In this document: piece after piece, positions 21,432 to 57,936 of the stretch | Layout of the letters: the number at the start of each line of letters is the position of its first letter | Numbering within the stretch: position 1 is the stretch's first letter | From: Homalodisca vitripennis | Lineage: Eukaryota > Arthropoda > Insecta > Hemiptera > Cicadellidae | Direction: 5' to 3' | NCBI RefSeq assembly: GCF_021130785.1 | Contig: NW_025776858.1 | Location: forward strand, 1-64,000 | Length of the DNA stretch: 64,000 nt | Translations under genes and position numbers: made by a program | The notes under the pieces: model-generated | Database searches by the model: none | Told to the model about the DNA's origin: nothing | The model's input: only the letters and a program-made list of their open reading frames with translations

Positions 21432-21845
21432 AGCTGCTCTCTCAGCTGTCTCTCAGTTCTGGTTTTGTTTGTTAGTGTAGGTTAGTGTTAGGTAGGGGGA
21501 GGTTAGAGTACACAACTTTTTTTTTCATTAGGAGCTCGCCCTAGCACAGGATACCGGGTGGAATTGGTTTAGTGTCTTGCTTCCTGCAGACTTACCCTTT
21601 GCAGGGAGCAAGGGACTCTAAATTGCTTAACCGCTAAATTTATCTAACTGTACTCTACTTCTCCCCTATCAATGTGTTGTTTTGTTATATTTATTGCTTC
21701 TGTGTTTGTAGGTTGTGGTTAGTGTATATTTGCAGGGTATCCTTCTATTAGGTAGCAGGTATTAAGTTCTTCACTTGGTCCTCGTCAGTGTAAGCCATTT
21801 GTGAGTTGAGTCCACTTAGGTTACTAAGTAATTGTTGCGTACGCT
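21432..21845 (+). other. Gypsy 5' leader
   Basis: Untranslated leader between primer site and gag. It contains a partial second copy (about 21528-21582) of an LTR segment found at about 21055-21110: aggagctcgcccta, then a gap, then ggataccgggtggaattgg. A packaging or dimerisation role is possible but not shown. Confidence 0.6.
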
Positions 21846-23165: not shown

Positions 23166-23170
23166 TAAGC

Positions 23171-23491
23171 TTGCGGACGAGTAAGCCCGACTCGTGCCGT
23201 AAAGGTAATTTTGAGGGCAAATATTTACATGATTTTGATGGTAAAAGGGTAGCTGGTTTAATACAGAACAGAAAGAAAACAGAAAGAAATAGACTTGGGG
23301 ACAGTTATCATCGTTGGCCGAGAGGGGAGGTTGCTGCTCTGGCTGCGCAGGGAGTAAGGGCTGCCCGCTCAACCTGCCCTCAACTGGATGTACTTGTGGG
23401 GAAGGTGGTGCAGAAGGCCCTGGTTGATTCTGGGTCAGCACGCAGCCTGATTTCTTTGTCGTTTTTTGAAGATCTAAAATCCTCTGGGTAA
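23171..23491 (+). pseudogene. pol: Gypsy protease, N-terminal part
   Basis: The frame following gag carries the retroviral-type aspartic protease active-site motif as LVDSGSARSLIS, preceded by the strand LDVLVGKVVQKA. The second half of the fold, recognisable as FILGADFI, is in a different frame (from about 23640), so the domain is split by a frameshift near 23490 in a GGG run. The enzyme would cut the Gag-Pol polyprotein. The overlap and adjacency with gag fit the normal gag-pro-pol arrangement. It is broken as read here. Confidence 0.8.
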
Positions 23492-23493
23492 TA

Positions 23494-40553: not shown

Positions 40554-40559
40554 CACGTA
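40554..40559. repeat. Polinton target-site duplication, left (CACGTA)
   Basis: Perfect 6-bp match to 57931-57936. A 6-bp duplication is the signature of Polinton/Maverick integration. Confidence 0.95.
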
Positions 40560-40818
40560 AGTAGTTATAAAATGTAGCTTCTGGGACAGGACCTTTGACC
40601 CCTGTTATCTCTCTGCGGGGGGTCCTTATCAGTGATAACCTTTGACATTTCCGCATATTTTAAGATAAGCACGTGCCAGATAACCTTGACCCCCAATTAA
40701 AAAGCAATTGACCTCAATTAAATAACAATTAGATAAGCCCGCGAGGTCGCTACTATTGTTTACGTTTCGTTATCGGCACGCGCCGGTTCGTATCGCGAAT
40801 TCTTCACCTCTAGGTCAT
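40560..40818 (+). repeat. Polinton left terminal inverted repeat
   Basis: Matches the reverse complement of 57671-57930, with one substitution (gaCatttcc against gaTatttcc) and three single-base indels seen by eye. It contains six GATA-type hexamers and two half-palindromic GATA sites, a CACGTG E-box (about 40670s), and TTGACC repeats, including an arrangement close to a DR1 nuclear-receptor site (ggacctttgacccc, about 40589-40602). Confidence 0.95.
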
Positions 40819-41057
40819 GGACCTGATATCACTGTCAGGCGTCTGCCAACCAGTCCATCAGACCGATAAGGTTTTTGTCTCTTTAAAACTATGTGATGAA
40901 TAATATAATGCAACGTTATCCAAAAAAAAAAACAATTCTTCTAACTATAGTACGATTGACTCGAGAGTGTTTCGAGTTATATATTTTTCTGCTTAATATG
41001 CATTTTGTAAGAATATAAATGGATTGACTCGCTATTGATTTATTATTATTATTATGT
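40819..41057 (+). promoter_or_regulatory. Upstream region of the left terminal gene
   Basis: Non-coding DNA between the terminal repeat and the first gene. A TATA-like ttatatattttt at about 40977 is the best promoter candidate; nothing else supports it. Confidence 0.35.
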
Positions 41058-41700
41058 GTGTTAATCATGTCGGTAACAATGCCATATGTAATCTTCCTTT
41101 ATGTTTTGAGTGTTGTGTACAGTCAACAAAATTTCTCTTCACAACACTGGGGTAATGGAAGTACACTTGTAGCTCACGCAATATCAAACAGAACAAGGAT
41201 AGATTTACATTACTCACCTAAATCTCCCCATCAAGCGTTGTTCACTTTGAACTATTTCAATGTTAGTAGCCAAGAGACAACTAGTGGATCTGATGGAGAA
41301 GAATCGTTGTCATTTTTTAATGAAGAGACTATGAATGATGCCCCGTCAGAACAAGGTGATGAAACGTTTTCTTTTGACGAAAAACGACTCTACATTTAAT
41401 GAAGACAACTATAGTGATGACACGACCACACTTGAAATTTTAAATGAAACAAATGACTGTTGTCTGCAAGCTGATGATTGCGCATATGTTAAAGAATCTT
41501 TACAAAAAGACATTGAGGAATACATCGATAGAATAGGACAGTTAAATAATGAAATCTCAAGATTGAATACAACAATTCGTGTCCTAGAATATGATGCTGA
41601 ATTAAGAAACAAGGAATTGTACGAAGTGAAGTCACCCAAATATAGAAGTCGAAGATGTTACTGTCGGAGAAGAAAAGGAATTTTAAGACGTGGTGTCTAA
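41058..41700 (+). pseudogene. Secreted or membrane-targeted coiled-coil protein of unknown function
   Basis: I do not recognise this family. The first frame (41058-41399) starts with a good signal peptide (PYVIFLYVLSVVYSQQ), then a segment with potential N-glycosylation sites (NGS, NRT, NVS) and an acidic Ser/Glu-rich stretch. The second frame (41335-41700) continues with acidic residues, a Cys pair (CCLQADDC), a predicted coiled coil (about residues 55-95: IDRIGQLNNEISRLNTTIRV) and a very basic Cys-containing tail (RSRRCYCRRRKGILRRG). The frames join by a one-base shift in an A-run near 41380. The gene lies outside the main operon-like block, between the terminal repeat and the left promoter module, so it may be cargo specific to this lineage. 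An AATAAA follows at about 41706. Confidence 0.55.
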
Positions 41701-42081
41701 GTCTTAATAAAGTTAGAAGAGCAGAAATAATCAACAGTTCAGAAGATTTACTAGAAAAACAATTTTATGTATATATGTTTAATATAAATATAACTTTTTA
41801 CTGAGGTATTAATTTTATTTGTGTTAACGTCCCAATAAAGACAGAACATGATTGGTATAATATTCATTATACTAAGCTTTGATATCAATTGACCTGACAT
41901 CTGATAAATGTTTTATCTAACAACCAATTTAATTTTAAATGAAGCACTATTTGTCCTCTATTTACCCTTGTTTACTACATTTTGTCGACACGTGGTCACC
42001 TTAAACCTTTAGAATGTTTAAAACTGCAACTTTCTATCAACACGTGTTCGCCTTTAACCTCAAACGTCAGTTCTGGATGGG

Positions 42082-42157
42082 TATATAGCGTTCTCTTCCT
42101 CAGAGAGTTGATCAAGTTCAATTTTCGACTTCTACTCGTCCGCTTCTCACTTAACAA
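42082..42157 (+). promoter_or_regulatory. Rightward core promoter and leader exon
   Basis: A TATA box (ggTATATAg, 42082-42087) sits about 25-30 bp before a putative start around 42110. A leader of roughly 45 nt ends at 42157 with a good splice donor (AACAA|GTAAGT). A poly-pyrimidine acceptor at 42509 (ttttattag) or a second at 42575 (tttacag) could join it to the 236-aa gene at 42605. A six-codon upstream frame (ATG at 42516) follows the first acceptor. The same promoter and donor occur in mirror image at 56649-56730. Confidence 0.75.
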
Positions 42158-42185
42158 GTAAGTAGTAATCTTTCACTTTATAGTC

Positions 42186-42239
42186 AGTGTGATAGAAAAT
42201 GGAAACCTTGCGGTGTTAACACAAGTTTTCTATTACACT
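42186..42239 (+). promoter_or_regulatory. Hairpin unit A in the rightward leader intron
   Basis: 14-bp arms (agtgtgatagaaaa and its near-complement) enclose the 20-nt core GGAAACCTTGCGGTGTTAAC, whose end is itself part of a smaller palindrome centred on GTTAAC. Confidence 0.8.
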
Positions 42240-42288
42240 TTAAAGAATTACAAGTCTGTAAATATAATATATACTTAGTGCTGTTGAG

Positions 42289-42328
42289 CAGAGAACGGAA
42301 ACCTTGCGGTGTTAACGTAAGTTCTCTG
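42289..42328 (+). promoter_or_regulatory. Hairpin unit B in the rightward leader intron
   Basis: 8-bp arms (cagagaac and gttctctg) enclose the same 20-nt core as unit A. Units A and B have different arms but one core. Confidence 0.8.
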
Positions 42329-42604
42329 TTTAACAGTTGTTTTATTTTAAATATTGAAAAAAAAAAAAAACGTTAAAGATGTAAAATAACAATTGTTTAC
42401 AATCTTACGCTTTTTCAAAAGTATAAAAGATTAAAAATCAACTTTACTTAGAATAATATTTAGTGTAACACTTATTTGTTATTAATTACTTCTTTTTTTT
42501 TTTTATTAGAGAAAAATGGATTCCGACAAATGGTGAAGCAGTCTATTGACGTCAGAGAACCACGTGATTTTACAGCTCATCACTAGAAGAAGAAGAAGAA
42601 GAAG

Positions 42605-43315
42605 ATGGAGTTCATAATAGATTTTCAAGGGTTTAAAAATAGTAACAATGAATTTATAGTAAAAGAACTTGCTCTTATTTCAACTGATGCACAAATATAT
42701 GAGCTCCATTTATTTCAGCCACCGTGTAATTTTCATGAACTCGCACCACAAATACAAAAACAGGTGCTGTGGTTGGAGAGACAATACCATGGACTGTATT
42801 GGGGATCTGGTTTTACAGAGTATAATTCAATGAAAGATATATTTTCAAATGTTAAAATAAACGGAAATGTGTATGTGAAGGGAAACGAAAAACAAAAGTT
42901 TATAACTAGTTTACTGTCAGATTTTTGTGTTAATGTTATTAATATAGAAGATCTCGGTTGTCCCAATTTGTCTATTTTGAGATCTCAATTTGTACAACCG
43001 AGTTCGATGAAAGAATGTAGTTTTAATCACAGTCCACACAATTGTGCTTATATTAATGTACATGTATTGTTGCAATGGTTCAATGCACAAAAGCTTGTGG
43101 AGAAACAAATGGAAAATGTCAATTTAGCCTTTAAGGAGTGTTTTCAAAAAGGATACAAACATATGTCGGCTGGTATGGTCAAGTTTATCCCAAAACATTT
43201 CATTGTAAATCATTCTGAGGATGTGGAAAATATATATGATAAACTACCCAGCAATTTGAAATGTGATATAGACATTGTCTTAAGCATGACATGTAAAGAA
43301 CACTACCCGCATTAA
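42605..43315 (+). CDS. 236-aa Polinton-associated protein, possibly RNase H-fold
   Basis: Intact gene, the first of the rightward block. It opens EFIIDFQGF, with a buried strand ending in an acidic residue (Asp6), then KELALIS. A middle region holds WLERQYHGLYW and VYVKGNEKQKFI. A Cys/His segment follows (DLGCPNL, about residues 116-122; CSFNHSPHNCAYINVH, about 138-153) and a LLQWF helix. I recognise this arrangement as a conserved companion of insect Polintons. The opening strand-acidic pattern and the late His/Cys motif loosely recall RNase H-like nucleases, but no full catalytic set is evident, so function stays unknown. It lies directly downstream of the rightward promoter/intron, suggesting it heads the transcript. 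It is one of the few genes here without a frameshift. Confidence 0.8.
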   Translation: MEFIIDFQGFKNSNNEFIVKELALISTDAQIYELHLFQPPCNFHELAPQIQKQVLWLERQYHGLYWGSGFTEYNSMKDIFSNVKINGNVYVKGNEKQKFITSLLSDFCVNVINIEDLGCPNLSILRSQFVQPSSMKECSFNHSPHNCAYINVHVLLQWFNAQKLVEKQMENVNLAFKECFQKGYKHMSAGMVKFIPKHFIVNHSEDVENIYDKLPSNLKCDIDIVLSMTCKEHYPH

Positions 43316-43461
43316 CGTTAAGAAAAGACATTGTACGTACTGTTTAAATAAAGTTATGACATCATTATCTGTTCAAAGTTCATAGATAACAAATGTATTT
43401 TTAATAATTGTTCTTTTTGTAATAGTCTTTAGTACGTGCGCTGTTCTAAACAACAACAACA

Positions 43462-43992
43462 ATGTCAGTAGATACCGTTAATGGGTGTTGTAACATTTTT
43501 CAACTGTACTAAAAAGGACTTAACAAACTCTGGATTTTATCGGACAAAGTATTTTGAGAATGTTATTTGCTGCGGATGCGGATGGCAGTCAGACAGCACC
43601 AGACTAACTATTAGACATTTAAATTTCGTTCATAAAATCAACAATCCAGATTGTGACCTGAGTAAATTTATAAAGGAGGATTATAACAAACTATTGCAAG
43701 TACAAAAGGTCTGTTGCTGAAACTGAGAAGGTTATGAAAGAGACTTTTATGATGTGGCCTAAATCATATCCTGCAATAGAAGAAATGGTGAGCACCGGGT
43801 TTTACTACATTGGAACTGGTGATTCGACTACCTGCGTTAGCTGCGGTGTTTACTTTGGATCAGTGGAGTCCAGAAGACAATCCGCAAGAAGAACACAAGA
43901 GAGCATCACCTTTCTGTGAACTTGTCAAAATAAAATACTATATCATGATATATTGTTGTTTTTATTTTTCACTACCAGAGTATAACTCATGA
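43462..43992 (+). pseudogene. Inhibitor-of-apoptosis-like protein with two BIR domains
   Basis: Two zinc-binding BIR domains are visible. BIR1 (frame at 43481-43720) has SGFYRTKYFENVICCGCGW, then the zinc ligands His and Cys in HKINNPDC. BIR2 is split: STGFYYIGTGDSTTCVSCG is in the frame at 43734-43919, and its WSPEDNPQEEHKRASPFCEL half is in the frame at 43810-43992, so a one-base shift near 43860 breaks it. A further shift separates BIR1 from BIR2. BIR proteins bind and block caspases or their antagonists; large DNA viruses of insects carry two-BIR versions to delay host cell death. No RING domain follows. It sits between the 236-aa gene and integrase in the same direction. It is broken as read. 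Confidence 0.8.
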
Positions 43993-44921
43993 TGAATACA
44001 TTAGCTGTTAGAGCTGGTATTGCAAGAGAATTGCATAAACAAGCACGTAGGAATTTTCATACTCGTCATGTTGAACTTAAGGGTATTAATGATCTATATC
44101 AAGCAGATTTAGTGGAAATGATTCCATTTCAAAAATAAAATAAGGGTTTTAAATATATAATGACAATTATTAATTGTTTCAGTAAATTTGCAATTGCTAT
44201 ACCGTTGAAGTCTAAAAGTGGGCTTGAAATTGAGAAAGTTCTAAAACCAATATTATTAAAATATCCTATGAAACATTTTCAGACTGACCAGGGAACTGAA
44301 TGGTTCAATTCTAGAGTTAAATCGTTACTAAATAAGTACAATATAAATCATTATCATACATTCTCAGATAAAAAAGCGGTAATCGTTGAAAGGTTTAACC
44401 GCACACTGAAAAGTAAAATGTGGAGAGCGTTTAGTGAACAAGGTAGTTACCGCTGGCTCGGTTTATTACCAAAGCTTGTAAACGTATATAACAATACTGT
44501 TCACAGAACTATAGGAGTCAAACCTGTTGATGTAACAAATCTAAATGAGAGAGATATTTTATTAAGGATTGTTAAAACCCGTAAAACTCCTCAGTTAAAA
44601 CAAAGATTCAAAGTTGGTGATCCAGTTAGAGTAAGCAAAAAATCTAAAGTGTTTACTAAAGGTTATTTTCCTCAATGGAGCAATGAAATATATACTGTAT
44701 ATAAAGTACAGTTAACGAAACCTATTACATATATATTAAGAGATGATAAAGGAAATGTCATTAAAGGAGGATTCTATCAAGAGGAACTAAGCAAAACCAA
44801 TTACAAAGACACGTATTTAGTAGAAAAGATTGTTAGGAAAAAAGGTGATAAAGTTTTAGTGCGTTGGTTAGGATTTGATAAATCACATGAAAGTTGGATT
44901 GATAAAGTAGATCTTCTATAA
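43992..44921 (+). pseudogene. Polinton integrase (rve DDE core plus chromodomain)
   Basis: From ATG 43992, the catalytic core shows its first Asp in LYQADLVEM, second Asp in HFQTDQGTEWFN and Glu in VERFNRTLK: the DDE triad of retroviral-type integrases. An SH3-like segment (FKVGDPVRVSKKSKVF) follows, then a C-terminal chromodomain (LVEKIVRKKGDKVLVRW, then HESWID), which may tether integration to modified chromatin. It catalyses insertion and explains the 6-bp CACGTA duplication. A single in-frame TAA at 44136-44138 lies between the first Asp and the rest. There is no frameshift on either side, so the stop is an isolated lesion or a base error. The N-terminal zinc domain found in some relatives is not visible upstream. 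The stop codon of the longer frame abuts the start of the ATPase gene. Confidence 0.9.
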
Positions 44922-45594
44922 TGAAGTTTGAAAAACAAAAAAATAATTTTTCTGTTATAAATTTAGATATGATAATAAAGGAGAAGAAATTCAGAATACA
45001 AAAAACATCATGGTAAATTATTACCTAATTCTATAAGATGTATAATTTGCGGTCCTTCCAACTGCGGAAAAACGAACTTAATGTTAAATTTATTATTTTC
45101 TCCGCAAGGTCTGTTTTTTGAGAATATTTATATATTCTCGAAATCATTGTATCAATCAAAGTATGAGTTTTTGGAATGCGTGTTAAAAAAACTTCCTGAG
45201 ATTGGATACTTTTCGTTTTCAGACAACGATGAAGTCCCGCACCCAAGTGAAGTGAAACCGAATTCCATAATGATTTTTGATGATGTAGCTTGTGGTAAAA
45301 CAAACTAATATAAAAAATTACTTCTCCATGGGAAGACATAATGATGTTGACACGTTTTATATTTGCCAAACGTACAGTTACATTCCAAAACAGTTGGTAC
45401 GTGATAATGCTAATTTTATAGTTGTTTTCAAACAAGATGATCATGTAAACCCTGACATGAGTTTCGATACATTTAAAACTATTTGCTTTAGGGTATGGGA
45501 TCAAGGAAACAATAAATTTATTGTTATCGATAGAGAAAGTCAAGTTAATAAAGGACGTTATCGATCAGGATTTGATACGTTTGTAACACTATAA
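44921..45594 (+). pseudogene. FtsK/HerA (A32-like) genome-packaging ATPase
   Basis: Walker A is GPSNCGKT (45051-45074). Walker B is SIMIFDD (about 45266-45285). A downstream sensor-like segment reads MGRHNDVDTFYICQTYSY, followed by IPKQLVRDNANF. This is the P-loop ATPase that pumps element DNA into capsids in Polintons and many large DNA viruses. The start ATG at 44921 overlaps the integrase end. The protein runs through three frames: one shift near 44985-45000 before Walker A, another near 45300 just after Walker B. Residues on either side of each break look conserved, so the breaks may be recent or sequencing-derived. About 220 residues in all, normal for this family. Confidence 0.9.
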
Positions 45595-45711
45595 AGGGAG
45601 AGGTTACAAATCGTTTTGCATTTCATTTACTCCTTCAGTCGATGTTTGACGATCAAGGAGTAAAGATGGAGAGTAAAGCAGCAGAGGACGATCAATGCGA
45701 ACCAATTGAGA

Positions 45712-46913
45712 ATGAAAAAAATTAACAAAACAAAAGAAGATATTATCAAAGAAATTACAGAACTCCGGAAAAATATAAAACGAAAACATAGAACACTTAA
45801 ACGTGACCTTATAGAAACTGAAGATATGTGGAAAAACAAATTAAAAACCAATATCAGAACCGTTACAAAAACTAGTTGAGGAGGGTGAACAGCTTCAACA
45901 ACAACAACAACAACAACAACAAGAAGAAGTTAAGAAAGAACTTAAGAGGAAAAGTTTAGAAGACCATGAAGAAACACCTGCGAAACGTTACTTACCTCAA
46001 CATCCTCAAGGAGTTAAGAGAAAGCCTCGCCTAAATCTTCCAACTCAACCTGATTATGAGAGTGATTATGAATATGATGATGGTAATAGTGAAGAGCTTC
46101 CTTCTGCAAAACGATTAGCAAGTCATGATTCTTATATGGAAACTGAATTAACAAATGATAATAACGATATTGAAATGAATACACCACCGCCGCCAAAGCA
46201 ATTTGACGAGGAAATGGTATACGAGTCAACAACTGGACAGGTATTATTAAAAACACCCCAAGGAAAAAAACTTGCAAAGGAATTTGTAGAACGTGAGTTT
46301 TAAGGGGAAAATTGCTAGAGATTATTTTCTAAAACTTATACAAGGAGGTAAAACTCTAGACCATAATTATGGTATTCGAATCGATGGTGATTCTTGGATG
46401 ATAGGAGACAAACGAATAGATATTCATGTTGATGATATTTTAATAGATGGAAAAAGATATAAAGGTACACCCGGTCTTTATGAATTAATAGTTATGAACA
46501 TTCCAAACGATTATATTTATACTGAAGAGGATTTAAATGCATATGCTGACATTTTGAGAGAAACTAACGTTTATAGAGTGAATTATTCAGCAACAGGAAA
46601 AATTAGATCTAACAGAGGAAGTAAATATAAAAATATAATTGCTCCTCTGATTAATCGAGTACCAACACTTGAAGAGCATCACATGTCAACATATTCTGAT
46701 TTGGTAAATAAAGAAGCTACCGGGAGCGGTATTAATTTAACAAACACCGCACCTAATTATGTCTATTTTGACGATCCAAATGAACTTGTAGATCGATTGA
46801 GGTTATTATTAGCATCTCAACAAGCAGGGAACACAGGTCATTCAAATGAAATCAACTCAATCATTGAAGAACTACTTGAATTAGAACCTGTATTGTCAAA
46901 AAAAACGTTGTAG
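45712..46913 (+). pseudogene. Coiled-coil protein with a conserved C-terminal Polinton domain (DUF8207-like)
   Basis: The N-terminal frame (45712-45880) is a Lys-rich coiled coil (INKTKEDIIKEITELRKNIK). A Gln-rich run (about 8 Gln, 45890s-45920s), an acidic/Tyr stretch and a Pro run (TPPPPKQ) follow in a second frame to about 46290. The conserved domain (46293-46913, 206 codons) has YGIRIDGDSWMIGDKRIDI, then YKGTPGLYELIVM, then YTEEDLNAYADILRETN. The GTPGLYEL core is what I recall as DUF8207, found in insect Polinton proteins; function is unknown, but position among virion genes suggests a structural or scaffold role. One-base shifts near 45880 and 46290 divide it. Confidence 0.7.
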
Positions 46914-46992
46914 TGAAAAAATAAAATAAATATTGTTATCAAGTTGAATATTGTTCATTTTATTTCTATTCCTCACATGATATACATGTATC

Positions 46993-47622
46993 ATGAGTGT
47001 TGATAAATTTGGTCACCATTCACGATCGACTAAGGTTCTTAGAGGTCCAAAAGGAGAAGGGTTCGAACTTACTACCGAAGGCAATTATGATATGCAAAAT
47101 AAGAAACTGTGTAATGTCCAGAGAACCTACCGAGAAGAACGATGTTGTAAATTTAAACTATATCAAAAACAATAGTCTGTTAAGGACCAAAGATGGGAGT
47201 TTGTTTAATGCAGAAAATCTAAAAATATCAAATGTTGGAAAAACCTTCAAATTTACAAGATGTAGTTAACGTGCAATATTTAAAAGATTCCATCGAAGAC
47301 TGTTTAAGGATTGAAAATGGAAAGTTTGATGCGAAAAATAAAGTTATATGCAGTGCTAGTGAACCGGTTGAGGAGTATGACATTGTAAAATTTAAAATAC
47401 TTCAATAAACATGCTGTTAATGTGCAATATTTAAGAGATAACACATTAATACTTAATAAAACAACTAAAGAACTTGATGCAAAGAGTGCTACCATATCAA
47501 ATCTGTCTAAACCTAAGTTTCTGTACGATGCTGTGAACAAATTATATTTTCTAGAAAATATTGCCGACATAAACCTACGCAATTTATTATCAAATTCACA
47601 AAAAGGAGTAAGAAAAAGATGA
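46993..47622 (+). pseudogene. Modular fibre-like protein
   Basis: Starts MSVDKFGHHS, then VLRGPKGEGFEL. It then repeats a unit of about 35-40 residues with the pattern (G.F/Y)D..N..I.NV..P....D.VN..YL: visible pieces are NYDMQNKKLCNV, PTEKNDVVNLNYIK, LKISNVG, DVVNVQYLKDS, FDAKNKVI, AVNVQYLRDN and ATISNLSKPKFLYDAVNKLY. Such repeats resemble the trimeric beta-repeat shafts of phage tail fibres and adenovirus-type spikes, so host attachment is a plausible role; this is inference. At least three one-base shifts (about 47125, 47245, 47400) scatter the units over all frames. It lies between the DUF8207-like protein and the phospholipase, inside the virion gene block. Confidence 0.6.
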
Positions 47623-47742
47623 CTAAATCCGAATGGATAAATAAAGTTATAAAATATAAAAAACATAAATTGGCTTGATCTTTTTTTCAGTTAAAGTAGA
47701 GTCCCCAGTAAGTGAAGACGTCTCTTAGATGTATTTTAAGTA

Positions 47743-48219
47743 ATGGCTGTGCGAAAACAACCGCCTCAGTCGTTATTGTGGCTCCGGACTGTTAAGTACA
47801 ATTGGAAAAACTGCAAGTGCTATTATAAATCGAGGAATTGACATTTTACCTTTTGAAATTACATTTACCTGGAGGTTATCAGTACTGCGGTCCTGGTACA
47901 GATTTACAAAAGAGATTAAGTAGAAACGATCCAGGAATTAACGGTTTAGACGCAGCTTGTAAGGAACATGATATAGCGTACTTAAAATATCAAGATACTA
48001 ATAACAGAGCATACGCTGACAGAATCTTAGCTGAAAAGGCTTGGAATAGATTTAAAGCATCAGATTCAAGTGTAGGTGAAAAAAGCTGCAGCGTGGGCAG
48101 TTACAAATATTATGAAAGCGAAATCTAAATTAAGTGGTGGATCAATAAGTAAGAAGAAGAAGAAAGCAGTACAGAAGAGGAAACAGATGAAAACAAATAA
48201 AAATATAAAAAAACAATAA
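47743..48219 (+). pseudogene. Parvovirus-type phospholipase A2 protein
   Basis: The core frame (47829-48128) has the Ca-binding loop YCGPG (47883-47897) within GGYQYCGPGTDLQKRL, and the catalytic His-Asp pair in AACKEHDIAYLKY (47976-47981), the exact layout of the parvoviral capsid-linked phospholipase domain, which lets particles leave the endosome. An N-terminal segment lies in other frames (MAVRKQPPQS from 47743; STIGKTASAIINRG-like from about 47790), and the C-terminus ends in a Lys-rich run (ISKKKKKAVQKRKQ) that could be a nuclear signal. Shifts occur near 47772, 47855 and 48090. It lies between the fibre-like and protease genes. Confidence 0.85.
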
Positions 48220-48253
48220 GAAAACAAAGACAAACAAGAACAAAACAAAGCAA

Positions 48254-48718
48254 ATGAAAAAAACCTTAAAGGGAAAGGGGTTATATTTAAAACCGTATTC
48301 CGGATCAGGATTAAAAAAAAAAAAAAATATTCATCGAAAATAATAGATGAGCTTCCAAGTAAACCGCTATCACAGTTTGACATTTTAAAATGTGCTAAGC
48401 TTCTAAAGTTACCAGACTTTAGAGGAGTATTTATGAGAGACCTGTTACCGCCTAAAATTAACGATAATGAATCTGCAGTTGTTAATTTAGATAGTATAAA
48501 TGGAAAAGGTACACATTGGGTATGTTATGTGAAACGTGGATATAACGTAGAATACTTTGACAGTTTTGGCAATTTTAAGACCGCCGACCGAGTTAGAGGA
48601 TTATTTTAACAGTGGACCCCATCACGTTACAATCAAATACAATTACTTTCCGAGGCAGAAGGAAAATACTTTTAACTGCGGTCATTTGTGTTTAGACTTT
48701 TTGTTCGTGAAGAAATGA
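48254..48718 (+). pseudogene. Adenain-like cysteine protease (capsid maturation)
   Basis: Catalytic residues of the adenovirus-protease family are visible: His in GTHWVCYVK (codon at 48513), an Asp in VEYFDSFGN, and Gln/Cys in PRQKENTFNCGHLC (Cys codon 48677-48679). The start at 48254 (MKKTLKGKG) precedes a 15-A run in which the frame is lost. A second shift occurs near 48600, between the Asp and Cys motifs. The core lies in a 59-codon-from-Met stretch, short enough to be missed by simple scans. The enzyme processes capsid precursors in Polintons. Its stop overlaps the minor capsid start at 48715. Confidence 0.88.
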
Positions 48719-49417
48719 TTTGTGTTACAGGAAGATCGTCTGATCTCAAGTGTACGTTGTTTCCTCCTTTAGATTTATCAAGATCTAATGACTGGGAAAT
48801 GGGTTTTTTGGATTTAATGACTTACAATTCAATTCCCAATATTGAAGAAAATATCAATAACGTACTTTACATCGGCTCCAATACAATATCTCTTCCAACA
48901 GGATCTTATGAAATAGAAGACATTCATAAGTATATTAACAATAAATTGAAAGAAATAGATCCGACTACAACATTCAAGTTAAAAGCAAACAACAATACAC
49001 TTAAAAGTGAAATATGGTGTTCTAAGAGAATAGACGTTTCGAAACCTCACAATTTAGGTTCGTTACTTGGGTTTATAGATAAAGATATCAAGATATTGGA
49101 TGCAAATAAATGGCATGTATCATCAAGTCAAGTGGCCATTAACAAAGTTGATATCATACGAATCACTTGTAATATTGTAGGAGGTTCATATAGAGACGGA
49201 ATCGAAGGACACGTATTACATGAATTTTATCCAGTGGTTGGACCTGGATTTAAAATTGTTGGAAAGACCTGAATCAGTACAATATCTTCCAATTTACAAA
49301 CAAAATAATTTATCAGAATTTAACATAAAACTAGAAGATCAGAACGGAGATTTAATTAATTTCAGAGGTGAAAACATTAATTTACGCGTTCACATTAGAG
49401 AGAAAGCAGGAAAATAA
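48715..49417 (+). pseudogene. Minor capsid (penton-type) protein
   Basis: Starts MICVTGRSSDLKCTLFPPL, with the diagnostic ISLPTGSYEIEDIHKYIN segment (about residues 62-80), LGSLLGFIDKD, and GHVLHEFYPVVGPGF near the shift. It ends in a second frame with RPESVQYLPIY and FNIKLEDQNGDLINFRGE. This single jelly-roll protein forms the capsid vertices in Polintons. Total length about 230 residues is normal. One shift near 49250 splits it. Its start overlaps the protease stop by four bases, typical of the tight spacing in this block. Confidence 0.85.
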
Positions 49418-49419
49418 CT

Positions 49420-49560
49420 ATGGGCTTGGTGTTTAACTCAACCTCTGCATCTTCTAAAAAAAAAGTTAGTTAAAACCTTTCATACTACACCAAATGTCAG
49501 TATTTCCTCGAACAGTGAAGCCGTTAACATTGAGGAAACCGCATATTTCTTAACTCACTA
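49420..49560 (+). other. Possible very small gene between the capsid genes
   Basis: An ATG at 49420 opens MGLVFNSTSASSKKKVS and stops after an A9 run. The frame beyond the run stays open as TFHTTPNVSISSNSEAVN up to 49560. A single-base error in the A9 run would make about 47 codons. I do not recognise it. Confidence 0.3.
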
Positions 49561-49586
49561 GGAATATTTAAATCACCTTTATCATC

Positions 49587-50804
49587 ATGAACGGGATACT
49601 GGATATTGGTGAAAATGTAAATTTTGATGATTCAGTAATTAATATTGAAATGGCATTCTCACAATCCATACTCTTCGAATTCATTAAAGAATAGTGATGA
49701 AATTAGAATTCCAGTTCACCAACAAGATGTATACACATTACCAAGTCGAAGTTTCCTTCTGATTGAGGGAAAAATTATAAAGGTTGCGGACAATTCTGAT
49801 GATATAACTACGGAGTTGGTAAATAATGCTATGTCATTTTTGTTTGATGAAATACGATACGAACTGTGTGGTACAGAAAATTGATAGAGTTAAAAATGTT
49901 GGTATTACGACTACAATGAAAAATATACTTACATCTCGCCCAAGTGATGTCAACTGGATGGAAAATGCTGGTTGGAAAAATTACATCAGTAGAAAATTTA
50001 AGTGATAGAACTAACTTTTCTTTTTGTGTACCACTTAAATTGCTTCTTGGATTTGTAGAAGATTATAATCATATTTTATTAAATGTTAAACAGGAATTGG
50101 TACTTTTGAGAGCATCAAGTGATAAGAATGCCATCATTCAGAGTGGAGCTGCTTTACATGATTTTTAAAAAAATAAATTTGGCAAAAGTTATTTGGAAAG
50201 TACCTTACGTACAAGTTGAAGACAATATAAAAATTATCTCTTTTAAAAGTTGTAGATAAAGATCAACCTATTTCTATTCCTTTTAGAAGATGGCAGTTAA
50301 ACGAGTATCCATCTTTACCAGCCTCGCAGTTTCAAACATGGACAGTTAAAACTAGTTCAGTTATGGAAAAGCCACGCTACGTCATACTAGGTTTTCAAAC
50401 AAATCGTAAAGATAACGCTGCTAAAAATGCATCTCATTTTGATTTTTTGTCATCTAGAAATTGTGAAACTTTACCTCAACAGCAAGTACTATCCATATGA
50501 TAACTTGAACAGCAAACAAATCATTAATGTATGACTTGTATACAAGATTTCAATCTTCTTATTATTCAGGGATGTGATGATCAACCTTGTCTCGATAAAA
50601 CAACATTTTTAGCTAAAACTCCTTTATTTGTTATTGACTGTTCTAAGCAAGTGGAAACGTTAAAAATCAGGATCACTGGATATACGACTGGAAATTCAAA
50701 CGTCTGCTGCAATACCTGCTAATACGGCAGCCTACTGTTTGATCATTCATGATGCTTTAATTCAATATTTACCATTGTCTGGTATTGTTAAAAAAATTAT
50801 GTAG
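49587..50804 (+). pseudogene. Major capsid protein (double jelly roll)
   Basis: The N-terminus begins MNGILDIGENVNFDDS, followed by the strongly conserved DEIRIPVHQQDVYTLPSRS with LLIEGKI, then NNAMSFLFDEIRYEL. Later come DVNWMENAGWKNYIS, VPLKLLLGFVEDY, ISIPFRRWQLNEYPSL, TWTVKTSSVMEKPRYVILGF and a C-terminal IIHDALIQYLPLSG. About 400 residues, forming the capsid shell as pseudo-hexameric trimers. At least six one-base shifts (near 49640, 49885-49930, 50150-50250, 50470 and 50700) scatter it over all frames, but I see no clear in-frame nonsense mutation apart from those caused by shifts. It ends the rightward block, followed by AATAAA at 50819. Confidence 0.92.
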
Positions 50805-51003
50805 ATTTCTGTATTTATCAATAAAGGAACATGTTACTCTATTTCGATTTTTTCTTCTTTCCTTTTTTCTAATCACCTTGAAAGAAACATACAAGCGTAT
50901 GTCATATATGAAAAGGTTGTGAATTAAAAACAAAGTTTTTTGATTAAAAAGCTGTTTATTCTCACAATAACAAGCACAAAATGACAAGTCAAGAACTTAC
51001 AAG
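50805..51003. terminator. Convergent polyadenylation region
   Basis: Between the rightward and leftward transcription units. A plus-strand AATAAA lies at 50819-50824 and a minus-strand AATAAA at 50955-50960. The two signals face each other, so transcripts may overlap for about 130 bp. Confidence 0.65.
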
Positions 51004-54000
51004 CTATAATGACCATATGCTAGGGTGTTGATGTTGTTTTGGACAAACATATCTCTTATCATCCTTATTACTTAAAGCTAACTTGTTAATTACTACAGTT
51101 TTTACATTGTGCTTCTTTGATTGAAAAGTTCTTACATCTCTTCTCATATTTTCATTTTTAAACAAACAATCTAAATAGTTTTGAAAAACTATAGTCTTAT
51201 CCACGACAGCCTTTGAAAATTTCCTTTAGCTTTTTTCAATCTTAGATTATTGGATTCTTGTAAATAATCATCATTTGTTGTGCGGTAGGCATAAAGTTTA
51301 GGTCGTAAACCTACAAACTCTACAATTGGAATCCCTGTACATTCGTCTTTAAATTTGCCTAATGCTTTTTTGTTAGATGCATCAAAACACTTATGATCAA
51401 AAGGATAGTTGGATAAGTCGAGGTGTTGCTTTAGAATAGGATTCTCAAAGTCTTCATACAAGTCCTCAGTAAATACTTCATACAAAAAAGAATCTGTATC
51501 AAGATATAAAATGTTGATTTGTTTGTTACCATAAAAAAGGTTTTACAATGTTGTAGTGAAAGTTATACATGTGAAGTTTGGACAACTCCAAGACAGTGAA
51601 TCCTACATAAATTGGTTTGTTAAAACAAATCTTATCTTTGGATAGCTCAATAGCTGCAATATTTTCACCATATATTATTCTATTCTTAAAATTAGGCTTT
51701 GAAACTAACTTATCTACTCTTTTGCTATTAGTAACTAGTTCTAAATCAATTCTTTTCCTAATGTTTTCAATTGTTTTTCCAAACATTGCATTGTTTAGTA
51801 ATTTGTAAAATTCTTTCTCAAAATCGTTTTTTGATTCTTTTCGTTTTTTAGTATTAAAATCTATGTAAGGTTTTAACCAAACAACTCTGGGAAAACTTTA
51901 GAATTCTATGAATCTTTTTCAACACAAGACCGTTTTGCAAAGCTTGTTTTAAGTTTAAATAATGACAAACATATTTTTTTTTATCCGTTAATGTTGTTAA
52001 CAGCTTGATCTGTTTTGATCCTGGAGGACGTTTGTTTTCAGGGAGAAAAGGTAAATCATTATGTTCCTCATGAAGATGTTGTGGATAAGATAGATCACAC
52101 TCTAGAATGTAACCATTTTCTCCTTCATCAGGCTTTGTCATAAACATCAAAATGTTTTATCGCTCCCTTTTTTAACCATCTAAAGTTTTCTTTCGGTATT
52201 GGTTGAGACATTGAAAAACCATACAAATTATTTGCATCAATGTAAGTAAGAAAACTGACATCTTTACCAGCATCAAAAGATGATCCTAAATAACTATTGT
52301 TAGCTTTTGCATAGCGTTTAACACATTGGGTAATTCCTCCTCTTATTCCCTTTTCGATAAACATATACATATCATAATCATGAATCAGCTCAAGTTCAAC
52401 TTTAGTATACTTTAGCATAGCATCAAAGGTAAGACTAGGTAAGGTTAAAATAATGTGCTGGATCTAATTCATAATTATTTTATACAAAACTAATCTAAAG
52501 TTTTCAAATACATCACAGAGTAACAACACATCGGTTTTCAGATACAAATCGCTTATAATCACCGAGGGTTTGACAGTTAAATGTATTCCATACTTTTTCA
52601 GCATGTTCATAGTCCGTGTCCGATATTTCGCTTAAACCCATACTATTATAAAATTGCGCTTTAGCAGGGAGTTGAGTTACATCAAGTTTCTCCCAACTAT
52701 CGGTAAACTCATATGGATTACACTCCTTTTCTCGTTACAAGACACAAGTCTTCATCACGAAAAAACATTTTTTGTGTGAATAAATTGATCATTTTTTCAA
52801 ATTTTTAACCAAAGAACTTAGACTACTTGCCATGAACCTAAAGCTATCTATGAACCTTAATTTAATACCGCTATCTGTGTGTTTTTACATAAGAAATGTA
52901 TTTCTCTTTGGTGTTAGGAACAACATCAACTTTATTTTGATCAAGTCCTAAATGTTTAATAATAAAATGGGTATCATAATTAGAAACTACCGTGAATTAT
53001 AACGGGAAGAGATTTTTTGATCTTGTCTTTTTAAATTACAAGAACCGCATAACACTGCTCTGAATTTACCAGTTAAGTGACAATGGTCTCTACAAGGAGC
53101 ATTAAGAGCCTCACTAAATTCTGTGTTACAACATTCACAGTGGGTGGCTGACTTAAATCTATCACTTTCTTCCCTAGTAAGAGGTAACATGGGTACGTTT
53201 ACATTTAACAAATCACCAATCAGATTTGCTATAGATTTAATGTACTCTACAAATTTTAAACCGGGCATTAGGACCTCGATAGAGATAGGGCTCATTAGGC
53301 AAACTGTTTACAATTTCTAGTGGTAACATATTTTCGTTGATAGCAAAATATGCACAGAAGCTCATTGGTTCATGTATTTCTTTTACTGTTACATTGTTGA
53401 GATTGTTTGTTACATTCTTCAGAGCTAGGTTTTTTAGAATAGACTCAAAATCACAATAACATACTATAGGTACTTTATACTTAAAATGAAAGTTATTAAA
53501 AGATAAATAAGTAGGATCATCCTCATTATCTGTAAGATGAGGCATAACAACCTTTACGGGTTTGTTAGGAACACAGTCTTTTCTATGTTTTTTTAACAGT
53601 TTTTTTAGCACGTAAGCCTTGAAAATGTTTTTAAACAACTTTTACAAAAAGCTGCCTTTACTTTATGTTTTGTCATTTGTACACGTACTAATCTAGAAAA
53701 ATTATTAATATAACAATAGTGGCTTACTCCTACATTGTTAGAAAATAACAACAAATCTATGTGATCTTTCTTCTCAGTCTTAACCACTTTCAGAGGATAC
53801 ACCTCATTATTCTTGTTAAGTCCATATACGTTTATACTAACAGTCGGATTGTTTTTTTCAAATTTACCGACTTGATTTAGAGGTGTTGGAAACTGAATAC
53901 CGTTAAAATTAAATTTATGTTGTAAATCAAAGTATCTGTTGTTTACGCGCTCCCTGTGCACACCTTTAACATAATGACATAAAATTGCCCACTTAAAGCA

Positions 54001-54598
54001 CTCGTTATCATGTAAGTTCATCGGATTGATTACTGCTTTTTTAAGCACTATTGCTGATGGCAAAGGTATGAAAGTACTACCTCTAAGCGGTTTGTACCTG
54101 CTGAATCGTACTAAAATCCCATCAATATGTAGAAGAGTCCACCCACTCCCTTTGCTTAACTGTTCACTCTCTTCTCTACAAATTTTTTCTAAAACATTTT
54201 TTGTACAACTCTGGAAATGGAAGTTTCTTCCAAAACCTTCTTGTTTCTGGTTTTGAATGCGCGAGGTGTTACCTCTTGGCTAAGAGGTTTTACATAAGTG
54301 CACTCAAGCACAATATTAAACTTAATAGCATCACTTTCGGCTATGAACCCTGTTAATTAAACGTTCGAGTTTATCCTCATGTTGTTGGAGAAAATCACAA
54401 ATATTTAATAAATTCAAATCCACTGTTTTTAAGGAAAAAAGTTTTAAGTATTCCCTTGAAAGCGGTTTTTATCTCGATAAACTCATCAACACGAGTAACA
54501 ACTTCAAGACGTCTCCGCTTAGTCAATCTTGTAGGTGGAGCGTCTACTTCCATAGCCTGTTCATCACCGGCTAAACTGGAGTGTAATCTCTTAGCCAT
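51004..54598 (-). pseudogene. Protein-primed family B DNA polymerase
   Basis: Spans about 1,200 codons on the minus strand. The N-terminus begins MAKRLHSSLAGDEQ with a nuclear-signal-like LTKRRR. Exonuclease motif I is in VPIVCYCDFESIL (about 53440-53470). A Cys/His insert follows (CECCNTEF, then HCHLTGKFRAVLCGSCN). Exo II lies in VVSNYDTHFIIKHLG (about 52940-52985) and Exo III near LGDYKRF (about 52540). Polymerase motif A is TYIDANNLYGFSMSQ (about 52210-52250), motif B near MFGKTIENIRKR (about 51750-51786), and motif C is LDTDSFLYE (DTDS at 51489-51500), then a KLYAY motif. All catalytic motifs are present. It copies the element from a protein-primed end. At least eight frameshifts break it. 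It is transcribed leftward with the two genes to its right. Confidence 0.92.
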
Positions 54599-54707
54599 TG
54601 TAAAATTTGAATGTAAAAACTAATCTGAAAAAAAAAAAAAAAATTTCTAAAGTGGTTAAGATAGAAGAAAGAAATATCACTTAACTAACCCTATTTACAT
54701 AATATGT

Positions 54708-55745
54708 TTACTTCTTTACTTTCTGATCAATCACCGTTAATTTTGTATTTTCAATGTTTTTAACCTTCTTACCAAAAATAGTTAAAATAGAAGACAGTTT
54801 TTTTAGAGCTTCCTTTTCATCACCTTTAGTGGAATCAATCAAAAACAAGCCTTTTTTTGATACCATCTGCCAATACATGCTACTTGAACTGCAATATTTT
54901 AGGTCTTTTGTTTTAGTAATTTCGATTTTTATTAAATGCGTACCCTGCTCTCCTGGAGAAGTAAACCTTAATCTTTTCTTATTTTTTAAACATTGAAATT
55001 GTTGACTTAAGACTATTGGACCCTTCCCTTTCCTACTTCTAAAAAGACTATCAAAGTCTGATTCAGATTCCGTGTCTTCACTGCAAGAAGATGAGTCTGA
55101 TGAAGACGATGAACTAGAAGAAGATGAAGAAGAAGAAGACGAGGAGGGTTGAGGCTGATCGAGATTTCTTAAGTTTTTTAACAGATTTTTGTTTTAACTG
55201 TTTTGATCTACCTCTCTTGCTACTTTTCTTTTCTTCTTCTTCATTTTTAGATGAGCCCGAAAGAATATAATTTAAACATTGAATTACAGCATTAACTATT
55301 TCAGGTGTGTATTTTTTCCCTTTCAACGGTTTTTTACTTAAAATTGGTTTAAAAAAAGACATTACTTCATCGTATGTTTTAACTTCTGCAGTGAGCAACG
55401 GGACCTTTTCTTGACTAAGATCTACTGGGTTAATATGTACATTGGAATAAAAAACGTTCATAAGTTGTGTTAAGTCAAACACTAGGGCCATAGCGTCAAA
55501 GTTGTTTTTTAAAGTTTCGCATTTTTTTTAGTCCGTTGACTGCCTTCTCCCACATATCCAAAGAATTTAACCCAATCGTATACACATTTTTGAATCAAAA
55601 CTATCAAGCTGATCAACGCACCATCTACTTTTGAAGAAGAAGAAGTGCTTTTCTTTGGTTGGTCAACCACGGCATCAGATCTCATGGATTCATTGTCAGA
55701 ATCCACGGTTTCCACGACATGATGGGCTTGCTCCATTTTCTGCAT
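54708..55745 (-). pseudogene. Ser-rich protein of unknown function in the replication arm
   Basis: Not recognised. Minus-strand frames give MEQAHHVVETVDSDNESMRS, a Ser run (KKSTSSSSK) and a hydrophobic helix (LISLIVLIQKCVYDWVKFFG). A helical segment follows (VFDLTQLMNVFYSNV, then YTPEIVNAVIQCLNYI), then a Lys-rich patch (SSKRGRSKQLKQKSVKKLKK), a long Ser/Asp/Glu tract (about 55060-55140) and a C-terminal domain with RFTSPGEQGTHLIKIEITK and YWQMVSKKGLFLIDSTK. The acidic/Ser linker between two globular parts and the basic patch suggest a nucleic-acid-associated protein, perhaps a single-strand-binding or terminal-protein-like factor given its place between polymerase and dUTPase. That is inference. 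Shifts occur near 55505 and 55140. Confidence 0.5.
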
Positions 55746-55857
55746 TAAAAGAAAAAAAGAAAATTAGTTAACCTGTTAAACGCTTGCAAAAGTTAACAAA
55801 AATATAATATTTTATTTTAACTTAAATAAATCTTAAAAGTTTATAATTATTTTAATA

Positions 55858-56288
55858 CTACACACCACTAGACCCAAACCCATGTGATCCTCTCACGGTC
55901 TCTCCCACGTCAGAAAGCTCACATAACTCAGGATACAGTATTAATTCACAAATCAGTTGTGCTATCCTGTCTCCTTTTTTAATAACAAAGTCTTGATTTG
56001 AATGATTAAATAGTACAACACCTACATTCCCCGTATAGTCCCTGTCAACTACACCTGCTCCAACATCAATGAAATGATGTAGAGCCAAACCGGATCTAGG
56101 TGCTATTCTACCATAACAGTTTTCAGGTAGTTTAATTGCTATATCTGTCTTAATTAATTGTCTGCCAAATTTCTGTACTACATAATCATAGGCACTACAT
56201 AAATCAAAACCAGCAGCTGAAGGTGAGCTTCTATGTGGAGGAAAAGCGTTTTCAGTTAGACGCACGAACCCTAGTTGAGACTTCGACA
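55858..56288 (-). CDS. dut: dUTP pyrophosphatase (dUTPase)
   Basis: Complete trimeric dUTPase of about 143 residues with all five motifs: [46 protein letters not shown] (with the catalytic Asp), [22 protein letters not shown]. It hydrolyses dUTP to dUMP, keeping uracil out of newly made DNA. No ATG lies in frame upstream of SKSQLGFV: the exon begins at 56288 with TG directly after a poly-pyrimidine acceptor (TTTTTTTAG). The leftward leader exon ends with A at 56655, so splicing would create the ATG. It is the first gene of the leftward unit and has no frameshift. Confidence 0.92.
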
Positions 56289-56356
56289 CTAAAAAAATAA
56301 TAAGTTTTACATTAATTAAAGCTGTTTATGATAATAATTATGTATGTCTAGCTAAA

Positions 56357-56396
56357 CAGAGAACTTACGTTAACACCGCAAGGTTTCCATTCTCTG
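56357..56396 (-). promoter_or_regulatory. Hairpin unit B, right arm, distal copy
   Basis: Arms cagagaa and ttctctg around the shared 20-nt core, read on the minus strand. Confidence 0.8.
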
Positions 56397-56430
56397 CTCC
56401 ATAAAACTAAGTACTTATTATTATTTTAAA

Positions 56431-56484
56431 AGTGCGATAGAAAACTTGTGTTAACACCGCAAGGTTTCCATTTTCTATCACACT
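56431..56484 (-). promoter_or_regulatory. Hairpin unit A, right arm, distal copy
   Basis: Same as the left unit A apart from a single change in an arm (agtgCgatag). Confidence 0.8.
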
Positions 56485-56507
56485 GGTCTAAAATAAATTA
56501 CTAATAA

Positions 56508-56547
56508 CAGAGAACTTACGTTAACACCGCAAGGTTTCCATTCTCTG
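56508..56547 (-). promoter_or_regulatory. Hairpin unit B, right arm, proximal copy
   Basis: Identical in arms and core to the copy at 56357-56396, exactly 151 bp away. Confidence 0.8.
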
Positions 56548-56581
56548 CTCCATAAAACTAAGTACTTATTATTATTTTTAA

Positions 56582-56635
56582 AGTGTGATAGAAAACTTGT
56601 GTTAACACCGCAAGGTTTCCATTTTCTATCACACT
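56582..56635 (-). promoter_or_regulatory. Hairpin unit A, right arm, proximal copy
   Basis: Perfect 14-bp arms, agtgtgatagaaaa and its complement, around the shared core. Also 151 bp from its twin. Confidence 0.8.
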
Positions 56636-56648
56636 ATTTTATAGTTGT

Positions 56649-56730
56649 ACTTACTTGTTAAGTGAGAAGCGGACGAGTAGAAGTCGAAAATTGAACTTGA
56701 TCAACTCTCTGAAGAGGAGAACGCTATATA
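56649..56730 (-). promoter_or_regulatory. Leftward core promoter and leader exon
   Basis: Mirror copy of 42082-42157: TATATA at 56725-56730 (minus), the same leader (gagagttgatcaagttcaat and following) and the same donor (TTAACAA|GTAAGT). It drives dUTPase, the Ser-rich protein and polymerase. Confidence 0.75.
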
Positions 56731-57338
56731 CCCATCCAGAACTGACGTTTGAGGTTAAAGGCGAACACGTGTTGATAGAAATTTACAGTTTTAATCATTC
56801 TAAAGGTTTAAGGTGACCACGTGTCGACAAAATGTAGTAAACAAGGGTAAATAAAGGACAAATAAAAATGTGATATTATCAGGAGAGCAGACGTTGCAAG
56901 CATGTTTCGGTGCATAATCACTGTTAGCGGTGGATCAAACAATACCGCTTACTTTAAAATTAAATTGGTTGTTAGATAAAACATTTATCAGAGGTCAGGT
57001 CAATTGATATCAAAGCTTAGTATAATGAATATTATACCAATCATCTTCTGAGCTGTTGAATCTTTCACACTTCTATCTTTATTGGGATGTTAACACAAAT
57101 AAAAATTAATACCTCAGTAAAAAGTTATATTTATATTAAACATATATATATATATACATAAAATTGTTTAACTAGTAAATCTTCAACAATCTTTTTTTCT
57201 TTCTCTGCAATTTGAAGTTTTACGAATGAATTGTACCAATCATCTTCTGAAACTCTCTTCTAACTTTATTAAGACATCAAAACAAAATTATAAAATTATT
57301 TTTTTACTAGTAAATCTTTCACAAAATTTTTATTACTC

Positions 57339-57612
57339 TCAATTATAAGTTTTATGAAAAGTTGTAACCGGTCTCAAATCTTCATCCTTAGAGCTAGCTG
57401 CCACTACTTGAAACTTGAGAGTCTTGTACGCAGTTGTTTGTATCCGTTGGACGTGAAACCTGTGCTTTGTAATATTTTGAATCACCCCACGTCCAAGTCG
57501 AAGATGAAACGAAAGAGCTCTGAATTCGTTCACCTTCACGTCTCTCGTAGAATATTTGATACCTATTTCTCAAAACTCTTAAATTGTAAGCTTTTCTTTG
57601 TTCTTCTGACAT
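57339..57612 (-). pseudogene. Small protein of unknown function at the right end
   Basis: Minus strand, starting at 57612 with MSEEQRKAYNLRVLRNRYQI, a charged helical N-terminus. Two overlapping frames then compete: one ends at 57394 (VSRPTDTNNCVQDSQVSS), the other (57339-57539) carries FHLRLGRGVIQNITKHRF, then FQVVAASSKDEDLRPVTTF. A one-base shift near 57525 probably links start and second frame. It mirrors the left terminal gene in position (between terminal repeat and inner repeat, reading inward) but not in sequence. No family recognised. Confidence 0.4.
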
Positions 57613-57670
57613 TTTAATGTTTTTTTCTCCTCCAAAAGTGGGATGAAAGTAAACAATAATATCAACTTCA

Positions 57671-57930
57671 ATGACCTAGAGGTGAAGAATTCGCGATACG
57701 AACCGGCGCGTTGCCGATAAACGAAACGTAAACAATAGTAGCGACCTCGCGGGCTTATCTAATTGTTATTTAATTGAGGTCAATTGCTTTTTAATTGGGG
57801 TCAAGGTTATCTGGCACGTGCTTATCTTAAAATATGCGGAAATATCAAAGGTTATCACTGATAAGGACCCCCCGCAGAGAGATAACAGGGGTCAAAGGTC
57901 CTGTCCCAGAAGCTACATTTTATAACTACT
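57671..57930 (-). repeat. Polinton right terminal inverted repeat
   Basis: Reverse complement of 40560-40818. The element's last bases are ..TAACTACT. Confidence 0.95.
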
Positions 57931-57936
57931 CACGTA
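57931..57936. repeat. Polinton target-site duplication, right (CACGTA)
   Basis: Perfect copy of 40554-40559. Confidence 0.95.

Follow-up and report, generated by a model that had tools for sequence, protein, structure and literature searches.

Polinton/Maverick elements and adintoviruses are the closest described systems to the element analysed here, a Polinton of 17,371 base pairs (bp) located at 40560-57930 of a 64,000-nucleotide stretch of Homalodisca vitripennis contig NW_025776858.1 (hereafter the window, to which all coordinates refer). The window element shares with them its predicted gene set, terminal inverted repeats and a 6-bp target duplication, and differs from them in having a second inverted pair with a predicted promoter, leader and hairpin-bearing intron. 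A literature search, which covered abstracts and passages with subscription journals mostly outside it, returned no mention of a second inverted pair in a Polinton; the adintovirus passages of PMC8363768 and PMC11071296 do not mention one, those of the latter defining adintoviruses by an OTU-like N-terminal PolB domain together with a hexon recognisable by BLASTp (PMC11071296). Two more distant systems offer partial parallels. The adenovirus major late unit, as described in passages of PMC7851563, carries a short AUG-less tripartite leader that is spliced to many mRNA bodies. The window element is similar in that its leader lacks an AUG and would be spliced on, the evidence for multi-gene use here being splice acceptors; it differs in that a single 44-nucleotide (nt) leader exon is predicted, twice in mirror image, and in that the splice itself would create the start codon. 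According to passages of PMC5978394 and PMC11642819, the ambisense densoviruses JcDV and MpDV have a promoter near each end and convergent capsid and replication units, with identical 547-nt terminal repeats in JcDV (PMC5978394). The window element resembles these viruses in layout; they are, however, parvoviruses with rolling-hairpin telomeres, and the passages concerned do not describe the two units as having the same spliced leader or as both having hairpin introns. Apart from its unusual and probably derived expression cassette, the window element is an ordinary Polinton.

In a gapped alignment, the inner block extends over 41701-42332 (left module, + strand) and 57275-56353 (right module, - strand), the right copy containing internal insertions. 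Each module holds a polyadenylation signal (AATAAA, at 41706 and 57270), a TATA box, a leader, a donor and hairpins (A and B on the left; A, B, A and B on the right). The inverted arms comprise 217 nt at 97% identity (41948-42164 / 56648-56864), 110 nt at 95%, 59 nt at 98% and 69 nt at 90%; the leader and donor stretch (42100-42164) is the same in both arms, with all six substitutions of the 217-nt block preceding it. Three motifs, TATATAG (42082, +; 56730, -), GATCAAGTTC (42110, +; 56702, -) and AACAAGTAAGT (42153, +; 56659, -), are found in a single copy in each arm and are absent from the rest of the element. The 20-mer hairpin core GGAAACCTTGCGGTGTTAAC is present in six exact copies, with 0 expected from 100 shuffles; together with the 217 nt at 97%, these copies place the inner pair far beyond chance. 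An earlier note on this DNA had described an inner inverted-repeat pair at 41690-42330 / 56357-57290, with the same TATA box, leader, donor (AACAA|GTAAGT) and hairpin-bearing intron in each arm; the pair is real, at nearly the coordinates proposed, its motifs are as described, and the hairpins are found in both arms, with their number corrected to two on the left and four on the right. The arm directions it gave also stand, the left module pointing into BIR, integrase, ATPase, phospholipase A2 and capsid pieces and the right into dUTPase and PolB pieces.

The TATA boxes at 42082-42088 (+) and 56724-56730 (-) are the predicted core promoters. The predicted leader exons, located at 42114-42157 (+) and 56655-56698 (-), are 44 nt long, contain no ATG and end in AACAA; their start was placed from the TATA spacing and a TCA initiator-like site (TCAAG), and the introns would begin at 42158 and 56654, with the donor AACAA|GTAAGTA in both arms. 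On the right, the dUTPase frame (55858-56325) contains no Met. The sequence ahead of dUTPase reads TTATTTTTTTAG|TGTCGAAG, and joining the AACAA of the leader to the acceptor AG|TG gives AACAATGTCGAAG, which is translated as M-S-K-S-Q-L-G; the TG at 56288-56287, at the head of a predicted second exon with dUTPase (55858-56288, -), would complete the AUG begun by the leader. Because the frame is without Met and an AUG arises only from AACAA plus AG|TG, leader splicing on the dUTPase side, as the earlier note had it, is strongly implied.

The acceptor that would make the start codon is retained well beyond the window. TTTTAG|TG is kept at all 30 of the best-scoring dUTPase loci of the window's own family (family 1) in the host genome, and AG|TG at nine of ten related or decayed loci (L059-L064 and L075-L078), the tenth, L062, reading CAATG. 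In family 2, the dUTPase of which is 83% identical, four of five loci read TTTTCAG|TGGAGCAG, with L062 again the exception. The acceptor of L064 (dUTPase 78% identical) reads TTTTTTAG|TGGAGCAG; here approximately 2.0 kb with other genes separates dUTPase from its leader, which ends in AAACAA|GTAAGTA, and AG|TG is still kept. At ten loci from families whose dUTPase is 57-60% identical, the tract ends in AG and no TG follows; the short-tract frame of L065 happens to contain an ATG. Another gene precedes dUTPase in the distant families L065-L074, where the position expected for a start codon is taken by a polypyrimidine tract and an AG. The H. vitripennis database protein P0167, which family-2 loci L059-L061 and L063 match at 137/138 residues, reads FFFSVEQLKLGF at the dUTPase start, its GenBank model reading the intron tract as FFFSV. 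This carries a warning for annotation, as genes with a splice-made AUG look headless to gene finders, the P0167 model being an example.

With the module as query, the host genome gave 40 scored hits at 99-100% identity among 259 candidates. All 20 module stretches fetched from these hits include 2-4 exact cores along with a terminal repeat, a TATA box and the donor; 18 lead into the left-arm gene that we name MEF (42605-43315, +; no Pfam match) and two into dUTPase. As this sample was picked by the module, recurrence was retested by gene. Promoter, leader and donor are present in 27 of the best 30 dUTPase arms (of 150 scored hits from 400 candidates; one is the window itself), two of the others (L030 and L031) being without promoter and hairpins and one (L053) having hairpins with a promoter that is not recognisable. 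In L030 (C1:68481455), where promoter and hairpins are missing, the terminal repeat starts about 340 nt before dUTPase. The right outer gene (R-outer; an open reading frame piece at 57394-57612, -) is found in 25 of these 30 arms, the left outer gene (L-outer; 41067-41700, +, as overlapping open pieces 41067-41399 and 41335-41700) in one, and neither in four. For MEF, 16 family-1 hits, 14 at 99-100% and two at 86%, were picked from 150 scored (1022 candidates); all 16 left arms have the donor with 2-6 hairpin cores upstream. L-outer is present in 17 of the 18 MEF arms fetched with the module query.

The left arms of related families look different. The family-2 left arm L079 comprises a terminal repeat, an R-outer-like piece, an open L-outer homologue and, approximately 140 nt later, MEF; no TATATA box, GTAAGT or hairpin core occurs in the whole arm. 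The module is likewise absent from the left arm of L080 (family 2) over the 495 nt covered, and donor and core are absent from the left arms of L100-L102 (family 2, 3/3) and of L099 (a 77% copy). The left arms without a module thus number five copies at 72-74% identity in MEF, one at 77% and two more distant. The last two, L081 and L082, have no core, match their own right arms only in the terminal repeat, and have MEF directly after an TTTTATAG acceptor. In all these left arms the neighbouring genes are directly adjacent, with no module between them. The right arms of family 2 (L059-L061) and of L064, on the other hand, have their own diverged promoter, leader and hairpins. Since related left arms are without the module and related right arms have diverged versions of it, the left module is most likely a family-1-specific mirror copy of the right one, placed between L-outer and MEF; a history in which all the other families examined lost it from their left arms is possible but takes more steps. 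The mirror-image promoter/leader/intron modules of the earlier note are therefore real and recur across family-1 copies; its reading does not extend to related Polintons in general, as the left module is missing from every other family examined in this genome. Relatives without an inner repeat were one of the outcomes that the note itself had named as refuting, and on this point its reading needs revision.

The left intron holds hairpin A at 42187-42241 (+; z -3.75) and hairpin B at 42286-42331 (+; z -5.13). The right intron, which has a 151-bp tandem duplication, holds four hairpins: A1 at 56577-56634 (z -4.98), B1 at 56505-56550 (z -2.75), A2 at 56429-56483 (z -4.40) and B2 at 56354-56399 (z -2.67), all on the - strand. 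Each B hairpin contains in its stem a second perfect donor, GTAAGT (at 42317, 56519 and 56368, respectively). Every hairpin combines two stems, an outer one and an inner one (CUUGCG/CRYAAG), with the 5' bulge UGGAAAC and a GUGUUAA loop of 7 nt; types A and B differ on both sides of three outer pairs. In the six window hairpins 97.1% of cells pair, and the cells paired, the doubly changed cells and the covariation score all lie beyond the 500 shuffles; RNAalifold favours another small inner stem. Five copies stand in tandem in L064, and in two of them a U replaces the mismatched C of hairpin A, completing the inner stem. Searching for the core (up to 6 mismatches) gave 268 near-matches, in overlapping loci with copies counted repeatedly, of which seven were without a stem; from 55 distinct core strings, two judged to be chance and four out of register were removed, leaving 49. 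Hairpin A matches family 2 and L064 at 55/58 and 54/58 positions (93-95%), compared with 357/426 and 340/427 (80-84%) for the dUTPase gene, 60/81 and 60/80 (74-75%) from TATA box to donor, and 80/132 upstream. The intronic hairpin is kept better between families than the dUTPase gene.

Rfam contains no match to the hairpins at gathering score; there are four sub-threshold matches, including Plastid-psbM over hairpin A1 (27.3 vs 52.7 bits, E 2.9). An antisense-strand ribozyme of the twister or twister-sister type (CCGCAAGG) is unsupported, there being no such Rfam match. A kissing loop via a GUUAAC palindrome was dropped, its closing bases lying within the inner stem in most copies, as were H/ACA-like and microRNA-like readings, which fit neither the sizes nor the position of conservation.

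Strong acceptors are found ahead of several other genes: on the left arm at 43979, 10 nt before the integrase Met, 3 nt before an ATG at 45639, and on the right at 55739 (-), 3 nt ahead of the ATG of the MEQAHH... gene, and at 54624 (-), 26 nt ahead of an ATG (MAKRLHSS...) presumably upstream of PolB. Strong-tract acceptors at 48773, 50287 and 55113 fall within coding pieces. At the distant loci L072 and L073, a long gene has its ATG 2 nt after an acceptor, and the dUTPase of L072 directly follows one too. From such positions we infer that the leader may be joined to acceptors of several genes per arm.

The explanation we favour, to which we give roughly two chances in three, is that of two mirror cassettes, the left probably duplicated from the right within the family, by which both convergent gene sets would begin with a shared leader spliced downstream. 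RNA polymerase II would start near 42114 and 56698, from one TATA box per arm, and the AUG-less leader would be spliced past the hairpins to acceptors belonging to various genes of each arm. The hairpins would act in the pre-mRNA, most likely by binding a common, perhaps element-encoded, factor, which would control splicing or timing of both arms jointly. How Polintons switch their genes is barely understood, and the anatomy of the cassette offers a concrete, testable answer. The family comparison within one genome points to a regulatory cassette mirror-copied to the other end of a virus-like element, and copying of this kind would be an easy way to bring convergent operon-like units under joint control.

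Several observations weigh against this explanation. The second exon(s) predicted on the left arm (42510-43315, +) are uncertain, as the acceptor before 42510 has a strong tract and leads to a short upstream open reading frame, and that before 42576 has a weak tract. The dUTPase acceptor does not appear in the list of strong acceptors. An automatic test found strong acceptors at open reading frame starts in 0/5 cases on the left (p 1.0) and 2/4 on the right (p 0.11), antisense strands are equally rich in them (4 and 5), and it was by eye, on a copy whose frames are broken, that acceptors were judged to lie close to gene starts. As to the hairpins, 105 of 500 shuffles gave at least as many doubly changed pairs as the six window copies have, and the core was not found in the families at 57-60% dUTPase identity. 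Exchange between families, as in L063, where a family-1 promoter is joined to a family-2 dUTPase, could inflate hairpin conservation. Among 49 distinct copies, decayed ones included, wobble polarity amounts to 14 distinct G-U vs 10 A-C pair types, so that RNA and DNA action are not settled by the hairpin strand.

We tentatively consider a more specific possibility, less likely than not, in which the hairpins represent a novel class of regulatory RNA in viral introns: tandem copies with an invariant bulge-and-loop core, bound by one factor, might gate leader splicing in both arms. The hidden donor of hairpin B (GUAAGU), if opened, would yield mRNAs without the dUTPase AUG, so that folding might switch both gene sets, the virion genes having been put under the switch of the replication genes. 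In the right arm the hidden hairpin-B donors have an unpaired probability of 0.02, vs 0.24 at the leader donor; in the left arm the values are 0.07 vs 0.09, where the contrast is not clear. We regard it as rather unlikely that the hairpins instead act as DNA, for example as cruciforms or protein-binding sites that serve replication, packaging or recombination near the ends, with their leader and intron context incidental. The core does hold a palindrome (GTGTTAACAC in hairpin A), the strand polarity of the wobble pairs is not decisive, and in family 1 the hairpins lie near both ends; other families, however, have them near one end only, all window copies lie within the predicted intron, sense with the leader, and the sense strand folds better in the two cases compared (-18.0 vs -15.8 and -16.0 vs -8.1 kcal/mol).

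A further alternative takes the inner pair to be the inner end of one long terminal repeat that is split by unequal outer genes, the likeness of the promoters then being a by-product of replication with no regulatory role. It gains support from copies in which the arms have exchanged material. Contigs C538 and C5 carry L-outer and the module on both arms, with outer and inner repeats continuous over 1977 and 1964 columns at approximately 95% identity, and L014 shows the other exchange, with R-outer on a MEF arm. One of the 14 re-fetched left arms, L086, is 96.8% identical to the query, so exchange between arms is not rare. Such copies are nonetheless a minority, given the outer genes found on the sampled dUTPase and MEF arms (R-outer 25/30; L-outer 17/18). 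Module left arms are approximately 99-100% identical to the left query and right arms mostly approximately 97%, indicating fixed arm-specific substitutions, and the inner arms differ at 21/545 positions vs 1/257 in the near-identical terminal repeats (Fisher p 0.004, hand-tallied from the alignment). These differences, the complete absence of the left module from related families and the conservation of the hairpins beyond that of coding sequence make the long-repeat origin unlikely. In C8 (L013/L014) and C1 (L015/L016), both arms lead into MEF; their convergent modules are 12.8-13.1 kb apart, and these are palindromic or rearranged copies. It is highly improbable that the hairpins, instead of regulating splicing, are a small-RNA source (microRNA-like or a Dicer decoy). 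They are, it is true, intronic, tandem and strongly folded hairpins in an insect, and aphids are known to have small RNAs derived from densovirus transcripts (a passage of PMC11642819); but conservation falls on their bulge and loop, and the stem turns over by compensating changes, opposite to the pattern of a microRNA.

The element is flanked by copies of CACGTA (40554-40559, and the same six bases at 57931-57936), and its terminal inverted repeats, defined by gapped alignment with one another, lie at 40560-40817 (+; 258 bp) and 57672-57930 (-), with three one-base gaps and a single substitution over the 257 columns aligned; terminal inverted repeats and a 6-bp target-site duplication are features of Polinton/Maverick elements. 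Several frames are broken in the window copy, and gene pieces were searched separately and not joined. Left-arm pieces match BIR, integrase (rve, and chromo weakly), ATPase (weakly), phospholipase A2 and double-jelly-roll (DJR) capsid in Pfam; those of the right arm match dUTPase (9.8e-46), PolB (weakly) and an endonuclease-VII-like domain. The integrase pieces (43979-44921, +) match rve at 4.3e-06, below the Pfam cut-off (27.4 vs 32.6 bits), with 1424 homologues, nearly all listed ones annotated PF00665. The DJR-like domain of the major capsid protein (5.3e-14) is in 49920-50165. Packaging ATPase matches (ATPase_2 0.0064; Pox_A32 0.0069) are both below cut-off, as are those of two separate, unjoined PolB pieces to DNA_pol_B_2 (0.0008-0.0009); the N-terminal PolB piece has no Pfam match. 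For an adenain-like protease there is no Pfam match, the best PDB match being cysteine protease S273R (E 0.28). Relatives were sought in viral contig, genome contig and phage collections, and none were found there.

The endonuclease-VII-like domain (1e-07) lies between the PolB pieces, at 52990-53307 (-). The L-outer homologue is a single open frame in the family-2 copy L079 (L079 1338-2003). The N-terminus of L-outer is hydrophobic, its N-x-S/T sites are numerous and one stretch is coiled-coil-like; its product is possibly a secreted or membrane protein. R-outer is 53% identical over 53 residues to a piece of the L079 left arm. Outside the Polinton, the window contains open frames resembling gag and pol of a Ty3/Gypsy-type retrotransposon (21828-26478; a by-eye label) and, at 14507-14974 (-), a frame which by eye is like a non-LTR reverse transcriptase fragment.

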